From Bacillota bacterium (GTDB taxonomy: Bacteria; Bacillota; Dethiobacteria; Dethiobacterales; Dethiobacteraceae), in NCBI GenBank assembly GCA_012521345.1, contig JAAYMN010000096.1, positions 1 to 64,000 on the forward strand: a stretch of DNA of 64,000 nt, written 5' to 3'. The position numbers and the translations under genes were made by a program. Of this stretch, positions 2,840-18,720 are shown one piece after another. Each line of letters starts with the position of its first letter. Positions within the stretch are counted from its first letter, which is position 1. Under the pieces are notes generated by a model. That model was not told where the DNA came from and made no database searches. It was given only the letters and a program-made list of their open reading frames with translations.

Positions 2840-3307
2840 ATGCCGCTGCACATTGTTCAGAATGATATTACCAAAATGCAGGTGGATGCCATTGTTAATG
2901 CTGCAAACACTGCCCTGAAGATGGGAGGGGGAGTATGCGGCGCCATTTTCAGGGCTGCCGGAGCGGAGCAGATGCAGGCCGCCTGTGATGCCATCGGCGG
3001 CTGCCGTACCGGCGAGGCGGTAATTACCCCGGGCTTCAGGCTGCCTGCCAAATACGTCATCCATACACCGGGACCCGTCTGGCAGGGCGGCAATAAGGGG
3101 GAGGAAGAGCTCCTGCGCAGCTGCTATCTTTCTTCACTGGAGCTTGCCCAAAAGCACGGCTGCCAATCGGTAGCCTTCCCGCTCATCTCCGCGGGCATCT
3201 ACGGCTACCCGAAAGACCAGGCCATGGAAGTGGCAACCACCGCCATCGAGGATTTCCTGCGTGAAAATAACAGCGAGATGGATGTCTACCTGGTTTTATT
3301 CGGCTAA
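2840..3307 (+). CDS. Macrodomain protein (MacroD/YmdB type), short C-terminus
   Basis: Predicted ADP-ribose-binding macrodomain that would remove ADP-ribose from proteins or hydrolyse O-acetyl-ADP-ribose. It has 155 residues from the ATG at 2840, chosen because GGAGGT (2827-2832) sits 7 nt upstream; an in-frame TTG at 2825 overlaps that site. The ADP-ribose motifs are intact: NAAN at residues 20-23, GGGVCGAI at 29-36, the HTPGPVW strand and the [10 protein letters not shown] loop. The protein stops right after the last beta strand (VYLVLFG), whereas relatives usually carry a further helix of about ten residues. It is followed after 24 nt by a DUF362 ferredoxin gene, so the two are probably one operon. 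A second, zinc-type macrodomain lies nearby on the other strand. Confidence 0.85.
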
Positions 3308-3331
3308 CTGCCGCTGGTGGGGTGATAGTCA

Positions 3332-4513
3332 ATGGCTGATGTTATTATTAAAGAATGCCGGGAATATGACGCGGAGATCATCAAGGCGCAAATTAATGCC
3401 GGGATGGAGTTGCTTGGCGGCTGGGGGCGCTTTGTTGCGCCGGGGATGAAAGTCCTGCTGAAAGTTAATCTGATTGGTCCGAAAAAAGCGGATTCGGCAG
3501 CGGTTACGCATGCCGAATTTGTGCGGGCGCTGGTGCAGATTCTGAAAAATCTTGGCTGCGAGGTCTGGATTGGCGACAGCTCGGGCGGCGCTATTGCCGG
3601 AATTGCTCCTACTGCCCAGAGTTTTAAGGTCTCCGGCCTTGCCCGGGTAGCCGAGGAAGAGGGGGCTGTTATTAAGAATTTTGACAGGGAAGGGGCAGTG
3701 GAAGTTAAAGCGGAAAGCGGCTTAGTAGAGGGCATGTACCTGGCCGGGCCCATGTTTGATGCTGATTTTGTCATCAACGTACCGAAGCTGAAGACGCATT
3801 CGGCCACATTGTATACGGGGGCAGTGAAAAACCTGTTTGGCTGCATCCCGGGTCTGAAAAAAGCCGGCTATCACCGCCTGGCTCCCGACCCAAAAGATTT
3901 GGGTACCGTTCTTTACGATATCCACCGGGCGGTGAAAGCCGGCCTGCATATAATGGACGGCATTGTTGCCATGCAGGGCGAAGGGCCTACGGCAGGGCAG
4001 GCCTACCCGGCCGGTAAAATCCTTATCAGCACCGACCCGCTGGCGCTGGATACGGTAGCTGCAGCCATGCTGGGTATGGATATCGCTGAGATACCTATGC
4101 TGCAGACAGTAAAAGAGCGGGGGCTGGGAACGGCAGACTTGGACAAAATCAGGCTTGCAGGCGATTTTGTGCAGCCGCCTGTCCTGCGGGGGTTTAAGCT
4201 GCCGAAGCGCTACCGCCGCAGTGGCAATTGGAACCCTGCCATAGTGGTGAAGTTCATAGATTTTATGCGGGCACGGCCGTATATTGACAGCAAACTTTGC
4301 AAAAACTGCAACATGTGCGTGGAAAGCTGCCCGGTACAGGCTATTGAGCAGCAGACAAAACGGATTGACTACAAGGCATGTATTGAATGTATGTGCTGTC
4401 ATGAACTTTGCCTGCATAAGGCGGTAACTTTGCGTTGGGACAACCGGCTGGCGGCTTTTTTCATGAAACTTTACAACAAGGCAATAGCAGCTGGGGCTGC
4501 CAAAAGCAAATAG
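3332..4513 (+). CDS. DUF362 domain protein with two C-terminal 4Fe-4S clusters
   Basis: Cytoplasmic iron-sulfur protein of 393 residues. Residues 1-290 carry the DUF362 fold: KVNLIGPKK, the IGDSSGG loop, VPKLKTHSATLYTGAVKNLFG and the DPLALDTVAA segment. Residues 318-366 hold two ferredoxin motifs (CKNCNMCVESCP, then CIECMCCHELC), so it probably passes electrons, but no substrate is known for the family. The start follows GGTGGGGTGA closely. It sits 24 nt behind the macrodomain gene and converges on the Zn-macrodomain gene, leaving only 24 nt with no visible terminator. A link to ADP-ribose metabolism is suggested only by position. Confidence 0.85.
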   Translation: MADVIIKECREYDAEIIKAQINAGMELLGGWGRFVAPGMKVLLKVNLIGPKKADSAAVTHAEFVRALVQILKNLGCEVWIGDSSGGAIAGIAPTAQSFKVSGLARVAEEEGAVIKNFDREGAVEVKAESGLVEGMYLAGPMFDADFVINVPKLKTHSATLYTGAVKNLFGCIPGLKKAGYHRLAPDPKDLGTVLYDIHRAVKAGLHIMDGIVAMQGEGPTAGQAYPAGKILISTDPLALDTVAAAMLGMDIAEIPMLQTVKERGLGTADLDKIRLAGDFVQPPVLRGFKLPKRYRRSGNWNPAIVVKFIDFMRARPYIDSKLCKNCNMCVESCPVQAIEQQTKRIDYKACIECMCCHELCLHKAVTLRWDNRLAAFFMKLYNKAIAAGAAKSK

Positions 4514-4537
4514 TTACGGCTGCGCGGCTGTGGCCGC

Positions 4538-5317
4538 TCATCCCAGAAGTTTTCGGTAAATAGCCTCGTCCGCGGCAGTGAATACGTTGAAAACGACGTA
4601 TTCAGGTGAAGGGTTTTGGGCGGGGAATTTTTTTACCTGTTCGATGGCAATTGCTGCCGCTTTTTCTTTGGGGAAGCGGAAGACGCCGGTTGAGATGCAG
4701 CAAAAGGCAATGCTGCGGCAGCCGTTTGCAGCTGCCAGCTCTAAACAGGACCGGTAGCAGGAGGCCAGGAGGTCGCAGTCCTGCTGCGTCAGCGGGTGGT
4801 CAATAACGGGGCCTACGGTGTGCAGGATATATTTGGCCGGAAGGTTGAAAGCGGGGGTGATTTTGGCCCGGCCGGTTGGTTCCGGGCGCCCCTGTTTGAC
4901 CATCAGCTCATGGCAGTACAGCCTGAGCTGGATGCCGCTGTAGGTGTGAATGCAGTTGTCAATGCAGTCGTGGCAGGGCTGCCAGCATCCTTCCAGTCCG
5001 CTGTTGGCGGCGTTCACGATGGCGTCTATTTTCAGCCTGGTAATGTCGCCCTTCCAGACGGCAAGGCGGGGGTCGGCAGCCGTTCTTTCCAGTTTGTCCG
5101 CATCAACAATTCCCCGCCTGGCAAGCAGCTCCTGCAAATAAGCGTCCTGGATTTGCAGGAATTCCTTGCTTGCAGGCAGGGGAGGCCGGACATTCATCAG
5201 GGAGCGCAAAAGCCGCCACTGCAGCCCTGGGTCGGCCGGTATTTCTATGTCCTTGTACTTTGGGTTTTCTTTTAACAATTCTTGAATCAGGTAAATTCTT
5301 TTTTCAGCGTGTGTCAT
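4538..5317 (-). CDS. Zinc-dependent macrodomain, protein-ADP-ribose hydrolase linked to SirTM
   Basis: Predicted hydrolase that removes ADP-ribose placed on a target protein by the adjacent class M sirtuin. It has 259 residues. A helical N-terminal part (1-80) precedes the macrodomain. NAAN is at 102-105. The zinc signature specific to this family follows (C111, C115, H116 and C118 in CWQPCHDCIDN, then IHTYSGIQLR), and the ISTGVFRFP loop and a full C-terminal helix are present. The start codon overlaps the sirtuin stop by 4 nt (ATGA), indicating translational coupling. In known SirTM operons this enzyme reverses modification of a lipoylated GcvH-like protein; no such gene is found here. The family assignment is strong and the substrate is open. 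Confidence 0.9.
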   Translation of the reverse strand: MTHAEKRIYLIQELLKENPKYKDIEIPADPGLQWRLLRSLMNVRPPLPASKEFLQIQDAYLQELLARRGIVDADKLERTAADPRLAVWKGDITRLKIDAIVNAANSGLEGCWQPCHDCIDNCIHTYSGIQLRLYCHELMVKQGRPEPTGRAKITPAFNLPAKYILHTVGPVIDHPLTQQDCDLLASCYRSCLELAAANGCRSIAFCCISTGVFRFPKEKAAAIAIEQVKKFPAQNPSPEYVVFNVFTAADEAIYRKLLG

Positions 5318-6225
5318 GATTCTTGCCCTTTTCCTTGCATTTGATAAAGGTGCTCAATGACATCCGCGGCATCGTAGGGCATTTCAGTCGCGGCATGCTT
5401 TATGGCGTCCGGGACCATAGGATAGCCGCCGTGGCCGGGCCATTCCTTGTATTCCTTGTTGACCCGGAACAGGTGGGCATTGCTATGATAATAGGTCAGG
5501 CGTTCAAAGGGCCAGCGAATGACTACAGGCGTGTTGAAGCCCACTCCCAGTTCAAGAAGGCAGAGCTTTTTCCCGGCAGTGCTTTCCACAAAGTCATAGT
5601 AGCGCTGTCGTTCTTTTTTGTAGCCTTCGAAGGCTCGGAAGGCCAGGTTGAGCGGCGCGCCGCAGTACGGGCAGCGGGGGATGGCGTTTTCATCGGCGAT
5701 CATGAAGGTTTCCGGGTCAATCAGGGGCAGCAGCTTGTCAATGTAAGGCTTGATTTCCCAGGTTTCCCTTGTGCACCCGGCCATGCAGCGCACCCTGTCG
5801 TAGCTGCCCTGGGCTTCAAAGACGCGGTCCATGGGGAAGCCCGTCCGCAGGAATTGCCGGTCGCAGTTGGAGGTAATGACAAAAAAGTCTTTGCCCTCCA
5901 CAATGCTAAGCAGTTTTTTGTAGAGTTCGGAGGGAGGGAACACATAGCGGACGAAATGGACATGCCTGACCAGGTAAGCCCATTCCCTTGCCTGCGGCCA
6001 TTCTTCATGCTGGAAAAGCTCATACGGGTAGCGATAGCCCCTGGCTGCCATCTCCGGCTGGAACTGCTTGAAGAGTTCCTCGTCCAGGTAGCTTAAGCCG
6101 GCGGCAGCCGTCAGCCCGGCGCCTGCACCGATCAGGATTTTGTCTGCAGTCTGCAGCCAGTGGTTCAGCTTTTCCAGGTCGGCAGTGAATTTTTTCTTTT
6201 CGTCACTGTTAAGCTGGTTTTGCAT
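5314..6225 (-). CDS. Class M sirtuin (SirTM), predicted protein ADP-ribosyltransferase
   Basis: NAD-dependent sirtuin of 303 residues. GAGAGLTAAAGLS (33-45) is the NAD-binding loop and TSNCDRQFLRTGF (118-130) replaces the usual TQNIDxLH segment, keeping N120 and D122. In canonical deacylases the catalytic His lies in an HG motif; here it is Gln (Q139 in EAQGSY), as in SirTM enzymes known to ADP-ribosylate rather than deacetylate. Cys residues for the structural zinc follow (CMAGC, CPYCG). The start at 6225 was chosen because GGAGG sits 5 nt upstream; the frame is open further, but that part overlaps the upstream gene. It lies between a UroD-family gene and the Zn-macrodomain gene in one minus-strand unit. 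GcvH-L and LplA2 partners are absent from the window. Confidence 0.9.
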   Translation of the reverse strand: MQNQLNSDEKKKFTADLEKLNHWLQTADKILIGAGAGLTAAAGLSYLDEELFKQFQPEMAARGYRYPYELFQHEEWPQAREWAYLVRHVHFVRYVFPPSELYKKLLSIVEGKDFFVITSNCDRQFLRTGFPMDRVFEAQGSYDRVRCMAGCTRETWEIKPYIDKLLPLIDPETFMIADENAIPRCPYCGAPLNLAFRAFEGYKKERQRYYDFVESTAGKKLCLLELGVGFNTPVVIRWPFERLTYYHSNAHLFRVNKEYKEWPGHGGYPMVPDAIKHAATEMPYDAADVIEHLYQMQGKGQES

Positions 6226-6256
6226 ACAATCCTCCGGCAAGGCAGCATCCGTTGCG

Positions 6257-7336
6257 TTACTTTCTGCCGTAGAGCTTGTTGTAGTATGCCAGGGAATAAT
6301 GGTAAAGCTCGTCCCTGGCGATTTTTTCCTGCTCGGCATTGTTGTTCTCGGTCATAATCCAGCACATGACGCGGCCGGTCTCGCCATAACGGTCCACAAA
6401 ATCACGGACTGCTTTGCGTATTTCACCTTCCTGCCAGTCTGGCTTCAGGATAAGGGGAAAGGCGAAGGTCATGTCCTTGCCATAGTGGGTGTACAGGTAG
6501 TCAAGATCGTTGGCGTTGTACTGCGGTGTCCACATGTCAATGCCCATTTCAATCATCATGGGAACATACTGGATGTTCTTGCCGCAGGAATGGAGTTCGA
6601 TAAACTTGCCCTGGCTCTTGACGAAATCAAGGAAGCGCTTCGTCGCCGGCATAATCTGCTTGCGGAACATTTCGTTGGAAAAGAACCCTGCGCGCTGCGT
6701 TCCCCAGTCGTCGTGGTACAGTACACCGTCCACGCGGCCGTAATACTTGAAAACATACTGGCAGCATTCAATCTTGTAGTCTGCCATCTTCTGAAAGAAT
6801 TCTTCCAGCAGTTCCGGTTCCTCGTAGAAAGCCAGCAAGGTTTCATCGAAGGGGATTAGTTCATGCAGGCGCTCAAAAATGCCTTCCACGCATTCATAAA
6901 TATGCGGCCTGTCCGGGTCCAGCATCTTTTGCAGTTTTTCGCCGTCTGTTTTGAAATCGACCAGCGACAAATCGGGCCACTCCAGTTCTTCTTTCCATTT
7001 TGAGAATTCGGATATTGTCCTGGTGCCCGGCTTGGTAATCATGCCGCCGACCGATTCCACCATGGTCCAGTAGACACCCCACCAGTCATAGCCGTCAACC
7101 TCCGGCACGGGGTGTTCTTCAATGGCGTCCGGCCAGATAATATTTGCTTCGTAAAAGTATGCCGGCATCCAGTAAGGCTGGTTGCCCTTGACGCAGCGTA
7201 GATAGTTGTCTCTGACACTGATTACCCGCTTGGGGATTGGTTCCTTCGGCCTCTGCATAATCCAGGGAAAGCTTCCCGGAGTCTGCCATTCCTTTGAATA
7301 ATCGCGGTTGGCTGCTCTTTCCATAAATCTGCCCAT
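6257..7336 (-). CDS. UroD/MtaA-family methyltransferase-like protein
   Basis: A 359-residue member of the uroporphyrinogen decarboxylase superfamily, of the kind that acts as a corrinoid- or cobalamin-dependent methyltransferase. HSCG at 249-252 matches the zinc-ligand motif of MtaA/MtbA-like enzymes, and D209-D210 lie in the HDDWGTQ segment typical of the family. It lacks the N-terminal Arg-rich signature of true heme-pathway HemE, and no heme genes are nearby. The start has AAGGAG 6-7 nt upstream. It is the first gene of the UroD, sirtuin and Zn-macrodomain unit, 31 nt before the sirtuin. An intrinsic terminator separates it from the ABC importer upstream. No corrinoid protein gene is visible in the window, so the methyl donor and acceptor are unknown. 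Confidence 0.8.
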   Translation of the reverse strand: MGRFMERAANRDYSKEWQTPGSFPWIMQRPKEPIPKRVISVRDNYLRCVKGNQPYWMPAYFYEANIIWPDAIEEHPVPEVDGYDWWGVYWTMVESVGGMITKPGTRTISEFSKWKEELEWPDLSLVDFKTDGEKLQKMLDPDRPHIYECVEGIFERLHELIPFDETLLAFYEEPELLEEFFQKMADYKIECCQYVFKYYGRVDGVLYHDDWGTQRAGFFSNEMFRKQIMPATKRFLDFVKSQGKFIELHSCGKNIQYVPMMIEMGIDMWTPQYNANDLDYLYTHYGKDMTFAFPLILKPDWQEGEIRKAVRDFVDRYGETGRVMCWIMTENNNAEQEKIARDELYHYSLAYYNKLYGRK

Positions 7337-7507
7337 CCTAATACTCCTTTCTGTCTGTTGTCACGGCTTTATATTTTTGTCGGCGGAATAATCCTTAAAA
7401 ACATTATATCATACCACGGCAGGAACAGTTTTGACAAAAGCAGGTCTGCGCGCCGGGAAAACCGCAGAGGGCAACAGGATTTGGGGAACAAAAAGCGGTG
7501 CAGACAT

Positions 7508-7542
7508 AAAACCGGGCTACAGGCACTATGCCTGCAACCCGG
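7508..7542 (-). terminator. Intrinsic terminator after the ABC importer operon
   Basis: On the minus strand a 14-bp stem (7529-7542 with 7512-7525, 3-nt loop) pairs fully if two G-U pairs are allowed, and runs into TTTT. On the plus strand the same two positions become A-C mismatches, so the structure is tuned for minus-strand RNA. It lies about 40 nt after the last permease gene. Confidence 0.8.
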
Positions 7543-7583
7543 CTGGTGGTGAAAGAAGAGAAGGCAGAGTGTTGCATGTGCTG

Positions 7584-15006: not shown

Positions 15007-15048
15007 AACCCCCTCATATCACTCGTGATATAAGGGGGTTTTGTTTTT
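15007..15048. terminator. Bidirectional terminator between dehydrogenase and DUF3786 genes
   Basis: A long stem pairs AACCCCCT (15007-15014) with AGGGGGTT (15033-15040), with an inner ATATCAC/GTGATAT stem, followed by TTGTTTTT. The convergent DUF3786 gene ends at 15047, so the structure probably serves both directions. Confidence 0.85.
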
Positions 15049-15664
15049 ACTCCGCCTTGAGCCTGAGCAGGGTATAGACCGTCTGGCCGGCCAGCTGGGC
15101 GCAGTCTTCGGTGGCTAGGTAGGCATTGACATGGCGGTTGAAAAGAATGTTGGCATCGGGGGGAAATTCATCATCACCGTACCAGAGAATTAAAAGCAAC
15201 GGCACGCGCGGCAGCACGGGAATAATGTAGGAAAGGTCGCCATAGGCGGCCTTTTTCCCTCCCAGGCGTTCCGCGGCTCTGGACAAGGCTTGCGGCCTGG
15301 TGCCGAAACCTTTGAGCAGGGGGATGACGGCCCGTTTCCGGAAAGGGCCGATATAGATGGCGCCGCTTTGCAGTTCCTGAAAGGAGATCCAGCTGTCGGA
15401 CGTTTCAGCCCCGCCGGCGCCGCTTAAATAATGCAGCAGCAATATGGCGGTGACAAAATCGGCCTTGTCCTCATTCTCCGCATAAACATTGCCTTCAGGA
15501 TAGCTGACTGTAAAAGCCCTTCCCAGATACGGCACGGTAAAGCACTGACGGACGGGGTCGTACGGACAGCCGCTCTGCTCTGCCATGAAAAGCGGCTCCC
15601 GGCCGGCAAATTTTTCCTGTGCCAGCTGCAGGGTGTAAGACAAGTTATAAGGGCTTCTTTCCAT
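15047..15664 (-). CDS. DUF3786 family protein
   Basis: Conserved protein of 205 residues without known function, frequent in anaerobes that use corrinoid enzymes. Family features are visible: LLLHYLSGAGG, the WISFQELQSGAIY segment, FRKRAVIPLL, a GDLSYIIPVLPRVPLLLILWYGDDEFPPDANILF core and the EDCAQLAGQ end. There is no signal peptide and no cofactor motif. A GAGG element lies about 8 nt before the start. It is convergent with the dehydrogenase gene and divergent from the ArsR gene, so it seems to be a single-gene unit. Confidence 0.8.
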   Translation of the reverse strand: MERSPYNLSYTLQLAQEKFAGREPLFMAEQSGCPYDPVRQCFTVPYLGRAFTVSYPEGNVYAENEDKADFVTAILLLHYLSGAGGAETSDSWISFQELQSGAIYIGPFRKRAVIPLLKGFGTRPQALSRAAERLGGKKAAYGDLSYIIPVLPRVPLLLILWYGDDEFPPDANILFNRHVNAYLATEDCAQLAGQTVYTLLRLKAE

Positions 15665-15761
15665 CTCGCCGCCTCGTTTCCTACCGTCTTTTTTCCATTA
15701 TAACATAACAGCGTATGCACAAAAAGAGCACAGTGCAGCACAACCTGGCTTGCCTTTCAGA

Positions 15762-15790
15762 TTGAATATTTTCAATATGTATGTTAAACT
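15762..15790 (+). promoter_or_regulatory. Promoter of the ArsR operon with overlapping operator
   Basis: TTGAAT (15762-15767) and TAAACT (15785-15790) are 17 nt apart. A perfect inverted repeat ATTGAA-N4-TTCAAT (15761-15776) covers the -35 element, where an ArsR-type repressor would block RNA polymerase. The repeat contains the TTGAA/TTCAA half-sites often seen for this family. Confidence 0.6.
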
Positions 15791-15830
15791 TTCATATATT
15801 GCTTAAACTTTGGCAAAGAAGGGAGATTGG

Positions 15831-16232
15831 ATGATAAACGAGTATCTCCGCGTCTTCCGTGCCTTTACGGACGAAAACCGTGTCCGCATCCTCGAGCTGC
15901 TCAGCGGGGGAGAGCAATGCGCCTGCATTTTGCTTGAAGAGCTGAAAATCAGTCAGCCGACACTTTCCTATCATATGAAAATACTCTGTGATTCCGGCCT
16001 TGTTAAAAGCCGCCGGGCGGGCAAATGGAACTACTACTCTATTAATCAGGACGGCTGCGAGTACGCCGGCCGCTTGCTGCAGGCAATCGGCAAACGCAAG
16101 AGGGAAAGCATGCTCCGCATCATGGGGCATATGTACCGTTTCCTGCGGCGCATCGGGGCCCTGCTGGAGCAAAAGGCTGCGCTCGAAAAGAACAGCGCTT
16201 GTGCCTGCTGTTCTCTGCAAAACACTTGGTAA
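15831..16232 (+). CDS. ArsR/SmtB-family metal- or metalloid-sensing repressor
   Basis: DNA-binding repressor of 133 residues with a winged-helix core (MINEYLRVFRAFTDENRVRILELL, then SQPTLSYHMKILCDSGLVKSRRAGKWNYYSI). C30 and C32 (CAC) lie in the helix that carries the CxC sensor site of arsenic-responsive ArsR proteins. A second Cys group, CACC, closes the C-terminus. Both could bind a soft metal or metalloid. The ATG at 15831 follows AAGGGAGA closely; an upstream TTG overlaps that site. The promoter carries an inverted repeat, so autoregulation is likely. The operon continues with a G3E GTPase and a radical SAM enzyme; no arsenite pump or reductase is present. Confidence 0.88.
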   Translation: MINEYLRVFRAFTDENRVRILELLSGGEQCACILLEELKISQPTLSYHMKILCDSGLVKSRRAGKWNYYSINQDGCEYAGRLLQAIGKRKRESMLRIMGHMYRFLRRIGALLEQKAALEKNSACACCSLQNTW

Positions 16233-16248
16233 AAAGGAGTTGGGCGCT

Positions 16249-17340
16249 GTGAAAAAATTCATGGTTGTCAGCGGTTTTTTGGGGGCCGGCAAGACAACAT
16301 TTATGGCTGCGCTGGCGGACTATATCAATGCAAATTCCGGCAAGGCAAGTGTGATTGTCAACGACCTTGGCGCCAAAAACCTTGTGGATTTCAAATATTC
16401 TCAGGCCTGCGGCTGCAATGTTACGGAACTGGCCGGCCAGTGCATCTGCTATCAGATGGAAAATCTGGTAGACAGGCTCAGACGCCTCCTGAACTTTGAA
16501 CATAATGATCTTGTCATGTCGGATATCCCCGGCTGCGGCGTCGGCGCGCTCGAGCATGTCTACCATAAACTTGACAGGGAATACCACGGCGAGTTCAACT
16601 TAGCGCCTTTTACCGTGGTGGCCGACCCGGAACGGCTGCGTGCCATCATGCCGGATGAGGCCGATATCAACCTGCCGGAGGAAATGAAGTACTTGTTCAG
16701 AGCGCAGTTGCAGGAAGCGGATGTTGTACTGCTGAACAAAATTGATCTCCTAACCGGCGAAAAAATTGAGGCCTGCCTGAAATTCCTGAGAGATTTCTGT
16801 CCCGATGCGGCGGTCTTTGCCGTCTCCGCGAAAAACAAAACGAATATTGAGCAAGTGGCGGACTACATAATGACCCATGACGCACGGCTGAAAGAAGTTG
16901 ACATCGGCTACGGCGGGCCCGAGTTCGTGGCCGCAGAACAAAAGTTGAGCTGGTACAACCGCCAGTTCTATGTAAAAGTCTGCTGCGGTACTTTTGACGG
17001 GGATGCTTTTCTGGGCGACCTGGTGGAAGCAATTCGCCTGAAACTGCTGCGCAGCCGCCGCAACGTCCCTCACCTGAAGGTTTTTGCCGAAGGTGAAGAC
17101 GGGACTTTCTGCAAAATCTCGCTTTTGGGCGTTGATTATGAGCCTCAGTACGACAGCAGGCTCGGCCGGCCCTGCACTGACTTGCCCGTGATCATCAACG
17201 CCAGGGCCGCCTGCGAATCCCGGCTGCTTGCCGGGATCATGGATGAAGCTTTGGCTGAAACGACAAAAAAATATAACCTTGACACCGTTGTATTCTTTAC
17301 CGAGTGCTTCGGTATTATAGACGAGGGTCGTCTCAGTTAG
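16249..17340 (+). CDS. G3E-family (CobW-like) GTPase, putative metallochaperone
   Basis: P-loop GTPase of 363 residues in the HypB/UreG/CobW group, which inserts metals or cofactors into enzymes. GFLGAGKTT (9-17) is Walker A, VNDLG and DIPGCGVG stand in for the switch segments and LLNKID gives nucleotide specificity. The usual CxCC metal motif is replaced by CGC (54-56) and CIC (65-67). The C-terminal part differs from CobW_C. The GTG at 16249 has AAGGAG about 9 nt upstream. It starts 16 nt after the ArsR stop and is followed after 60 nt by a radical SAM gene. A role in maturing or metallating that enzyme is an inference from position. Confidence 0.85.
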   Translation: MKKFMVVSGFLGAGKTTFMAALADYINANSGKASVIVNDLGAKNLVDFKYSQACGCNVTELAGQCICYQMENLVDRLRRLLNFEHNDLVMSDIPGCGVGALEHVYHKLDREYHGEFNLAPFTVVADPERLRAIMPDEADINLPEEMKYLFRAQLQEADVVLLNKIDLLTGEKIEACLKFLRDFCPDAAVFAVSAKNKTNIEQVADYIMTHDARLKEVDIGYGGPEFVAAEQKLSWYNRQFYVKVCCGTFDGDAFLGDLVEAIRLKLLRSRRNVPHLKVFAEGEDGTFCKISLLGVDYEPQYDSRLGRPCTDLPVIINARAACESRLLAGIMDEALAETTKKYNLDTVVFFTECFGIIDEGRLS

Positions 17341-17400
17341 TTAACTATTACATTGCCGGCTGCCTTCCGGCTGCCCGGCTTTGGTTTACGGAGGATAAGC

Positions 17401-18720
17401 ATGGGCAAAATTTTACGACACACTTACAGCGTATGCCCCGCCTGCTTAAAAAGAATCCCGGCGGTCCATGTAACCTACGGCCAAGAGATCTACCTGGAAA
17501 AAAAATGCCCGGAGCACGGTGCTTTTTCCGCAGTCGTCTGGCGCGGGCTGCTTGACAGGGAGGAATGGACGGGAGACTTGCCACCCATTGCGGAAGGTGA
17601 AAATGCAAACTGCCCGCAGGCATGCGGCTTGTGCCCTGAACATAGGCAGGATACCTGCTGTGTTTTACTGGAAGTTACAAAACGCTGCAACCTGCATTGC
17701 CCCTTTTGTTTTGCCGCAGGCGGGGCAGGCGAAGATATTCCCCTGGCAATAGTAAAAGAGCGTCTGCAGGCACTTGCCGTGCCGAACCAAACGCTTGTCC
17801 AGCTGAGCGGCGGGGAGCCCACTGTCCGTGACGACCTGCCGGAAATTGTTGCCGCCGCCAGGGAAGCGGGCTGCCGATACGTGCAGTTGAACACAAACGG
17901 CCTCAGGCTTGCAGAAGATGAAAGTTATGTCCGCAGCCTGGCGGAAGCCGGCCTGTCTTTTGTCTTCATGCAGTTTGACGGTATGGACGACAAGATCTAC
18001 CGCACCCTGCGCGGCAGAGACCTGCTTGACATAAAAAGGAGGGCCATTGACAACTGTGCCCGCCACAACCTTGGCGTTACACTTGTGCCCACCCTTGTGC
18101 CGCAGGTCAATACGCAGGATATCGGCAAGATCATCCGCTTTGCCGTTTCTCAGTCGCCGGCGGTGCGCGGCGTGCATTTTCAGCCTGTCAGTTATTTCGG
18201 GCGTTTCCCGGTGCTACCGACGGATGACAAGCGCTTTACCCTTGATGAATTGCTGACAGCCATTGCAGAACAGGCCGGTTCGCTTGTTCCGCAGGATTCG
18301 CTTTTGCCGTCGCGCTGCGACCACCCGCTGTGCGGCTTCCATGGCGACTATATTGTCATGCCCGATCAATCCTTATACCCGCTGCACAGAAGACAGATCA
18401 ACTGCTGCGGGACGACAACGGCGGACCAGAACCGCTCCTTTATCGCGCGCAGGTGGCAGCGGCAAAAAACCGGGGCTGCTGCCGAGCCGGAAGCAAGCTC
18501 CGATTTTGCTTCCTTTGACGGTTTTCTCCGCCGCCTCCGCACACACAGCTTTACCTTGACAGCCATGCTGTTCCAGGATGCCGGCAATCTTGATTTGGAA
18601 CGCCTCAGGAGGTGCAGCCTGCATGTCTTTGACGACGGGCGGTTTGTGCCGTTTTGCGCCTATTATCTGACAAGCCATAAAGCAGCACCGGCCTGGGCGA
18701 ACATGGTTCATAACGGTTAA
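17401..18720 (+). CDS. Radical SAM enzyme of the Tes/MJ0619-like group
   Basis: Radical SAM protein of 439 residues. C96, C100 and C103 (CNLHCPFC) bind the catalytic 4Fe-4S cluster. LSGGEPTVRDDLPEIV, VQLNTNGLRL, FMQFDGMDDKIYRTLRG and FQPVSYFGR follow in order. The N-terminus has CPAC (12-15), CPEHG (36-40) and CPQACGLCPEH (71-81), which with the later motifs is the layout of archaeal tetraether lipid synthase (MJ0619) and related bacterial proteins of the TrsS type. Such enzymes couple or modify unactivated carbons. The substrate here is unknown; a membrane lipid or a cofactor are options. The start follows ACGGAGG by 5 nt. It is the last gene of the ArsR operon and is closed by a nested terminator. 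Confidence 0.82.
   Translation: MGKILRHTYSVCPACLKRIPAVHVTYGQEIYLEKKCPEHGAFSAVVWRGLLDREEWTGDLPPIAEGENANCPQACGLCPEHRQDTCCVLLEVTKRCNLHCPFCFAAGGAGEDIPLAIVKERLQALAVPNQTLVQLSGGEPTVRDDLPEIVAAAREAGCRYVQLNTNGLRLAEDESYVRSLAEAGLSFVFMQFDGMDDKIYRTLRGRDLLDIKRRAIDNCARHNLGVTLVPTLVPQVNTQDIGKIIRFAVSQSPAVRGVHFQPVSYFGRFPVLPTDDKRFTLDELLTAIAEQAGSLVPQDSLLPSRCDHPLCGFHGDYIVMPDQSLYPLHRRQINCCGTTTADQNRSFIARRWQRQKTGAAAEPEASSDFASFDGFLRRLRTHSFTLTAMLFQDAGNLDLERLRRCSLHVFDDGRFVPFCAYYLTSHKAAPAWANMVHNG

Follow-up and report, generated by a model that had tools for sequence, protein, structure and literature searches.

A lipoate-free minimal SirTM/Zn-macrodomain pair that shares an apparent, lineage-specific operon with a UroD-family gene

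Introduction

Class M sirtuins (SirTM) have been characterized as protein ADP-ribosyltransferases in which a Gln in place of a His is the class-defining residue, and they have been tied to oxidative stress in S. aureus, S. pyogenes, and Candida (PMC4518038). In extended SirTM operons, the sirtuin and its Zn-macrodomain (Zn-Macro) partner are encoded together with GcvH-L, LplA2, OYE, and LLM (PMC4518038); among the known SirTM operons, those of this extended type in Lactobacillales and Staphylococcaceae are the only ones to encode GcvH-L and LplA2 (PMC4518038; PMC11490716). Also described is the class of 'minimal' operons, SirTM/Zn-Macro pairs that lack GcvH-L and whose target is an acknowledged open question; examples include MorMacro of Methanobrevibacter oralis (8rsi-8rsk) and the lone pairs of Enterococcus faecalis and Treponema pedis, and one minimal-operon Zn-Macro that was assayed was unable to demodify GcvH-L (PMC11490716). 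Here we describe a SirTM/Zn-Macro pair that follows a gene of the UroD family in a genome of the Dethiobacteraceae (Bacillota). It lies in the window, by which we mean the whole stretch analyzed, the first 64,000 nucleotides of contig JAAYMN010000096.1 (assembly GCA_012521345.1).

The window locus belongs to a known kind, the minimal SirTM/Zn-Macro pairs; it is lipoate-free and forms, together with a UroD-family gene, an operon specific to its lineage. Like the minimal operons, it has SirTM and Zn-Macro adjacent to each other and lacks GcvH-L and LplA (PMC11490716); it differs from them in that SirTM comes before Zn-Macro, the first gene is of the UroD family, and the genome lacks lipoylation altogether. 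The extra UroD gene does not conflict with membership in this class. With the extended operons the locus shares the Gln-for-His SirTM and the Zn-Macro partner (PMC4518038), but none of GcvH-L, LplA2, OYE, or LLM is encoded there. An initial annotation of the window had started from the premise that known SirTM operons carry a GcvH-like target and a lipoate ligase, which is true of extended operons and not of minimal ones. Its premise is incomplete because pairs without GcvH-L have already been described, and for the same reason the lack of GcvH-L at the locus is nothing new.

A SirTM/Zn-Macro pair behind a UroD-family gene

The unit runs along the minus strand from the UroD-family gene through the sirtuin to the Zn-Macro gene, with these features in the direction of transcription:

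7510-7544, minus strand: putative terminator-like 16-bp hairpin between a sugar ATP-binding cassette (ABC) transporter and the UroD gene
7408-7437, minus strand: putative promoter-like site upstream of the UroD gene, TTGTCA-18-TATGAT with a TG
6257-7336, minus strand: UroD-superfamily gene, 359 amino acids, first in the unit (38.9 bits to PF01208; cut-off 23.9)
5314-6225, minus strand: class M sirtuin (SirTM), 303 amino acids, predicted protein ADP-ribosyltransferase from homology and Gln139
4538-5317, minus strand: Zn-Macro, 259 amino acids, predicted (ADP-ribosyl)hydrolase partner (357 bits to the protein-ADP-ribose hydrolase model NF003163; cut-off 272)

The mechanically called open reading frame (ORF) of the sirtuin opens at 6339; translation really begins at ATG 6225, which follows a GGAGG and lies 31 bp from the stop of the co-oriented UroD gene. 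The sirtuin stop and the Zn-Macro start overlap as ATGA, an arrangement that recurs at two other loci, L024 and L030. The initial annotation had read this overlap correctly, along with the places of all five genes that it assigned to the region. Because the hairpin and the promoter-like site lie between the UroD gene and the ribose/arabinose-type ABC transporter upstream, the three genes are set apart from the transporter and look like one transcription unit.

The closest solved relatives of the sirtuin are a macrodomain-SirTM fusion from the fungus Fusarium (8rsn, 1e-35) and the class M sirtuin 5a3a (6e-27). Residue 139, counted from ATG 6225, is a Gln within FEAQGSYD, where deacylases have His, as had been noted at the outset. 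This replacement of the catalytic His (QG for HG) is found at the same column in 55 of 55 aligned SirTMs, whereas ordinary sirtuins from the bacterial class of the window keep HG. Gln139 is therefore a trait of the class and nothing peculiar to this locus. We also considered whether distant sirtuins of the same bacterial class could be SirTMs and ruled this out; those examined are of the HG deacylase type. The Zn-Macro protein aligns at 1e-70 to S. aureus 5kiv/8rsl and to archaeal 8rsi, and also to the Zn-Macros of S. pyogenes, with the zinc-motif region GC(x)4HxC aligned to 5kiv/8rsl. By analogy to these characterized relatives, the window SirTM would transfer ADP-ribose and the Zn-Macro would remove it.

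SirTM is genetically linked to Zn-Macro in 42 of 54 loci, and in L030 as well. The family is patchily distributed: SirTM occurs in 4 of the 98 genomes of the bacterial class, with a single copy in the genome under study, and a search of plasmids returned distant SirTMs only (24-37% identity among the matches listed). Some related genomes hold additional copies. In G010 and G016, a second SirTM with no adjoining macrodomain lies 13 kb from the SirTM-Zn-Macro pair (L029:2648-3568 and L031:2875-3846), and the same lone type sits at a contig end in G009 (L027:4250-5155). Sporobacter termitidis bin60 carries a tandem SirTM-SirTM-Zn-Macro array with overlapping genes (L026:2774-5390).

The genome lacks lipoylation machinery

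The initial annotation reported neither a GcvH-like target nor a lipoate ligase at the locus. This observation holds, and profile searches extend it to the whole genome, a 2.06 Mb MAG-like (metagenome-assembled genome) assembly of 130 contigs that is 97% complete. PF21948 (LplA-B_cat), the family of the lipoate ligase domain, has no match in this genome and matches 13 of 14 control genomes. No protein scores over the cut-off for the GcvH family; the one match below it belongs to the biotinyl proteins, with an AMKM motif, and is a decarboxylase subunit whose gene adjoins that of a decarboxylase membrane subunit. Nor did we find a second SirTM or a GcvH-L/LplA pair elsewhere in the genome. Because lipoylation is absent from the entire genome and not merely from the locus, the target of SirTM must differ from lipoyl-GcvH-L; judging by gene content, the lipoyl-GcvH-L mechanism cannot operate here.

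Among the 11 genomes in which near SirTMs were found, the LplA-B_cat domain is likewise missing from 7. That the SirTM/Zn-Macro pair is kept without a lipoate ligase means that it works without lipoylation, and genomes of this kind narrow the search for its target.

The UroD-family protein

The UroD-family protein carries the H-x-C motif as HSCG at residues 249-252. Its AlphaFold2 model (predicted local distance difference test score, pLDDT, of 88) is nearest in a Foldseek search to the M. mazei methyltransferase MtaA (4ay8; template modeling score, TM, of 0.60-0.63), with HemE next. With TM values of about 0.6 to both MtaA and HemE, the model has an MtaA/UroD-like barrel fold and leaves the reaction undecided. 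The fold and the H-x-C motif are thus shared with the corrinoid methyltransferases MtaA, MtbA, and CmuA, among which M. mazei MtaA is the nearest fold in the PDB (PMC10418091). The protein differs from them in its score with TIGR01463, the model for MtaA/CmuA, which at 22.8 bits is far under the cut-off of 235.4, in that the third zinc ligand is not established, and in that no corrinoid protein is encoded next to the UroD gene. The genome as a whole encodes 10 UroD-family proteins and 8 corrinoid proteins; methyl metabolism is therefore present.

UroD genes beside SirTM in related genomes

To ask how general the linkage to UroD is, we compared SirTM loci of the near clade (13 loci from a genome scan, plus G330, in eight lineages including that of the window) and 39 further Oscillospirales loci. 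The initial annotation had suggested looking for such linkage, and it proved not to be general. None of the 39 Oscillospirales loci has a UroD gene within about 6 kb, and we reject UroD as a conserved partner across the wider SirTM family. In G010 and G016, the closest assembled relatives, whose SirTMs are 81-82% identical to that of the window, a HAD hydrolase precedes the pair in place of UroD, and G008 holds an 81% identical orthologue of the window UroD yet has no SirTM.

The nearest counterpart is G009. There, an 89% identical UroD orthologue, also with a TATAAT region upstream, breaks off where contig C65 ends, leaving residues 1-129, and the C-terminus of a SirTM (from residue 294) followed by a Zn-Macro gene breaks off at the edge of contig C56. 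Because both fragments end at contig edges in complementary orientation, G009 probably shares the UroD-SirTM-Zn-Macro operon, which a gap in the assembly would have cut in two. The missing parts of the two genes were found nowhere else in the G009 assembly, and no shared end words join C65 to C56.

A UroD gene is also close by in two more loci of the near clade. The order in L030 is UroD, catalase, SirTM, Zn-Macro, and that in L033 is MtrH-like, corrinoid protein, UroD, SirTM, where the contig stops inside SirTM. These UroDs are 30% (L030) and 25% (L033) identical to that of the window; the three are no nearer to one another (25-30%) than to random UroDs of these genomes, and the L033 protein lacks the H-x-C motif. 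In both loci hairpins intervene, and SirTM starts 175 bp (L030) and 155 bp (L033) downstream. We rejected L033 as a case of an operonic UroD-SirTM pair: an apparent 12-bp gap is the artifact of an over-extended ORF, the real 155-bp gap containing a hairpin. L033 comes from a low-coverage contig of an Acidobacteria-labeled MAG, nzgw75; its near-clade SirTM, about 67-74% identical, reflects either horizontal transfer or misbinning. Taken together, these comparisons show that the UroD gene, which looks co-transcribed with the pair in the window lineage, is no constitutive partner of it.

Redox genes beside SirTM in Oscillospirales

The Oscillospirales loci have a different layout, with Zn-Macro ahead of SirTM, often behind a gene for a PNPOx-4Fe-4S fusion (11 loci). 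Other recurrent neighbors are a divergent HxlR regulator (16 loci), a radical SAM protein (7 loci), and a nitroreductase (5 loci). These redox genes are reminiscent of the oxidoreductases (OYE, LLM) encoded in the lipoyl operons, and the resemblance points to redox stress as a common theme. The Oscillospirales loci may represent an extended SirTM operon of a redox type not described so far; in the literature searched, no paper joins HxlR with a macrodomain and a sirtuin. The arrangement of a PNPOx-like/2x4Fe-4S gene before Zn-Macro-SirTM is seen among loci L099-L134 (e.g., L099:2133-6500, L101, L108, L118, and L123).

Probable function and candidate targets of the pair

We put the probability at roughly 0.75 that the core of the locus is a lipoyl-independent minimal SirTM/Zn-Macro pair acting as a reversible ADP-ribose switch with a probable role in stress or redox control, the chemistry being taken from characterized relatives. 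SirTM, with its Gln139, would take ADP-ribose from NAD+ and attach it to some protein of the cell, at a cysteine or an acidic side chain; the Zn-Macro would strip it off again via its zinc site, such that the pair forms a reversible switch. Most likely the switch would serve to keep a housekeeping or redox protein, encoded outside the operon, under stress or redox control. Several observations weigh against this reading. The redox neighbors belong to the wider Oscillospirales clade; within the near clade, L030 alone has one, the catalase. Some UroD gene lies within two genes upstream in 3 of the 8 near-clade lineages, which is above chance, so UroD may matter in this clade. And because the genome is a MAG-like assembly in 130 contigs, a missed lipoylation locus remains conceivable.

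The co-transcribed UroD is a local candidate for the target. The initial annotation had seen in it a sign of a different target, possibly in methyl or corrinoid metabolism; the difference from lipoyl-GcvH-L and the UroD gene 31 bp upstream are real, and the linkage is not conserved. If modification fell on the UroD-family protein, or on the methyl/corrinoid pathway of which it is part, a methyltransferase would take the place of GcvH-L/LplA, and the lead position of UroD in a tight three-gene unit, the G009 fragments that fit the same operon, and the many UroD and corrinoid proteins of the genome would all make sense. So would the settings of L033, with its corrinoid protein and MtrH-like gene, and L030; for these two cases among the seven lineages other than that of the window, the nominal chance is 0.0003-0.001, a figure that is a hint only because it was calculated after the cases were seen. 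But UroDs are common (0.3-0.9% of genes, 10-32 per genome), the three near-clade proteins are dissimilar, L030 and L033 have SirTM well downstream behind hairpins, and both the SirTM-less orthologue in G008 and the wider loci lack the association. We found no report in the literature searched of a SirTM with a uroporphyrinogen decarboxylase or UroD-type target, and we consider UroD a possible but unlikely target of the window pair. A broader version, in which near-clade pairs control one-carbon (methyl/corrinoid) metabolism by ADP-ribosylating UroD-type methyltransferases, with different subfamilies recruited in each lineage, strikes us as similarly doubtful.

The PNPOx-ferredoxins and nitroreductases of Oscillospirales recur beside the pair, which makes them stronger candidates than UroD. 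The pair might modify a redox carrier of this sort, much as in the lipoyl-GcvH-L/OYE/LLM cassette, with the carrier encoded elsewhere. The PNPOx-4Fe-4S fusion directly upstream of Zn-Macro-SirTM, the HxlR and nitroreductase neighbors, and the connection of SirTM to oxidative stress in S. aureus, S. pyogenes, and Candida (PMC4518038) are consistent with this idea; such genes are not found beside the window pair, however, and the window clade stands well apart in the tree, leaving it a tentative proposal that we would not favor. Other, distant sirtuin-fold proteins act by NAD depletion. An NAD-consuming toxin or anti-phage defense unit of that type, with no protein modification, would suit the patchy distribution of SirTM, but the class M motif and the Zn-Macro co-encoded in nearly all loci, together with the characterization of the family as protein ADP-ribosyltransferases (PMC4518038), make it very improbable; no defense genes were recognized nearby, although no scan with the padloc library was made.

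Other features of the window

A second macrodomain gene faces the unit from the plus strand, together with a convergent neighbor; we judge both to lie outside the system:

2840-3307, plus strand: MacroD-type macrodomain gene (Pfam Macro, 155 bits)
3332-4513, plus strand: DUF362 protein with a C-terminal 2x4Fe-4S region

The best NCBIfam model for the MacroD-type protein, an O-acetyl-ADP-ribose deacetylase, gives 186 bits, just below the cut-off of 200. The two facing macrodomain genes had been grouped as a cluster at first, which is not borne out: the homologues in G002 (88%) and G009 (82%) have different neighbors, neither DUF362 nor SirTM. Because of this, we consider the MacroD and DUF362 genes incidental and reject them as parts of the system, being unlinked in relatives both to SirTM and to each other; that the two macrodomain genes face each other is an accident of position.

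Further along, a distinct methyl/pterin-related cluster may lie at 15047-18720, 8-11 kb from the UroD gene, where a DUF3786 protein, a CobW-type GTPase, and a radical SAM protein bearing an HMPTM zinc ribbon are encoded. At 1439-2641, a BTAD/SARP-type regulator has a partial C-terminal GGDEF domain, an unusual combination.

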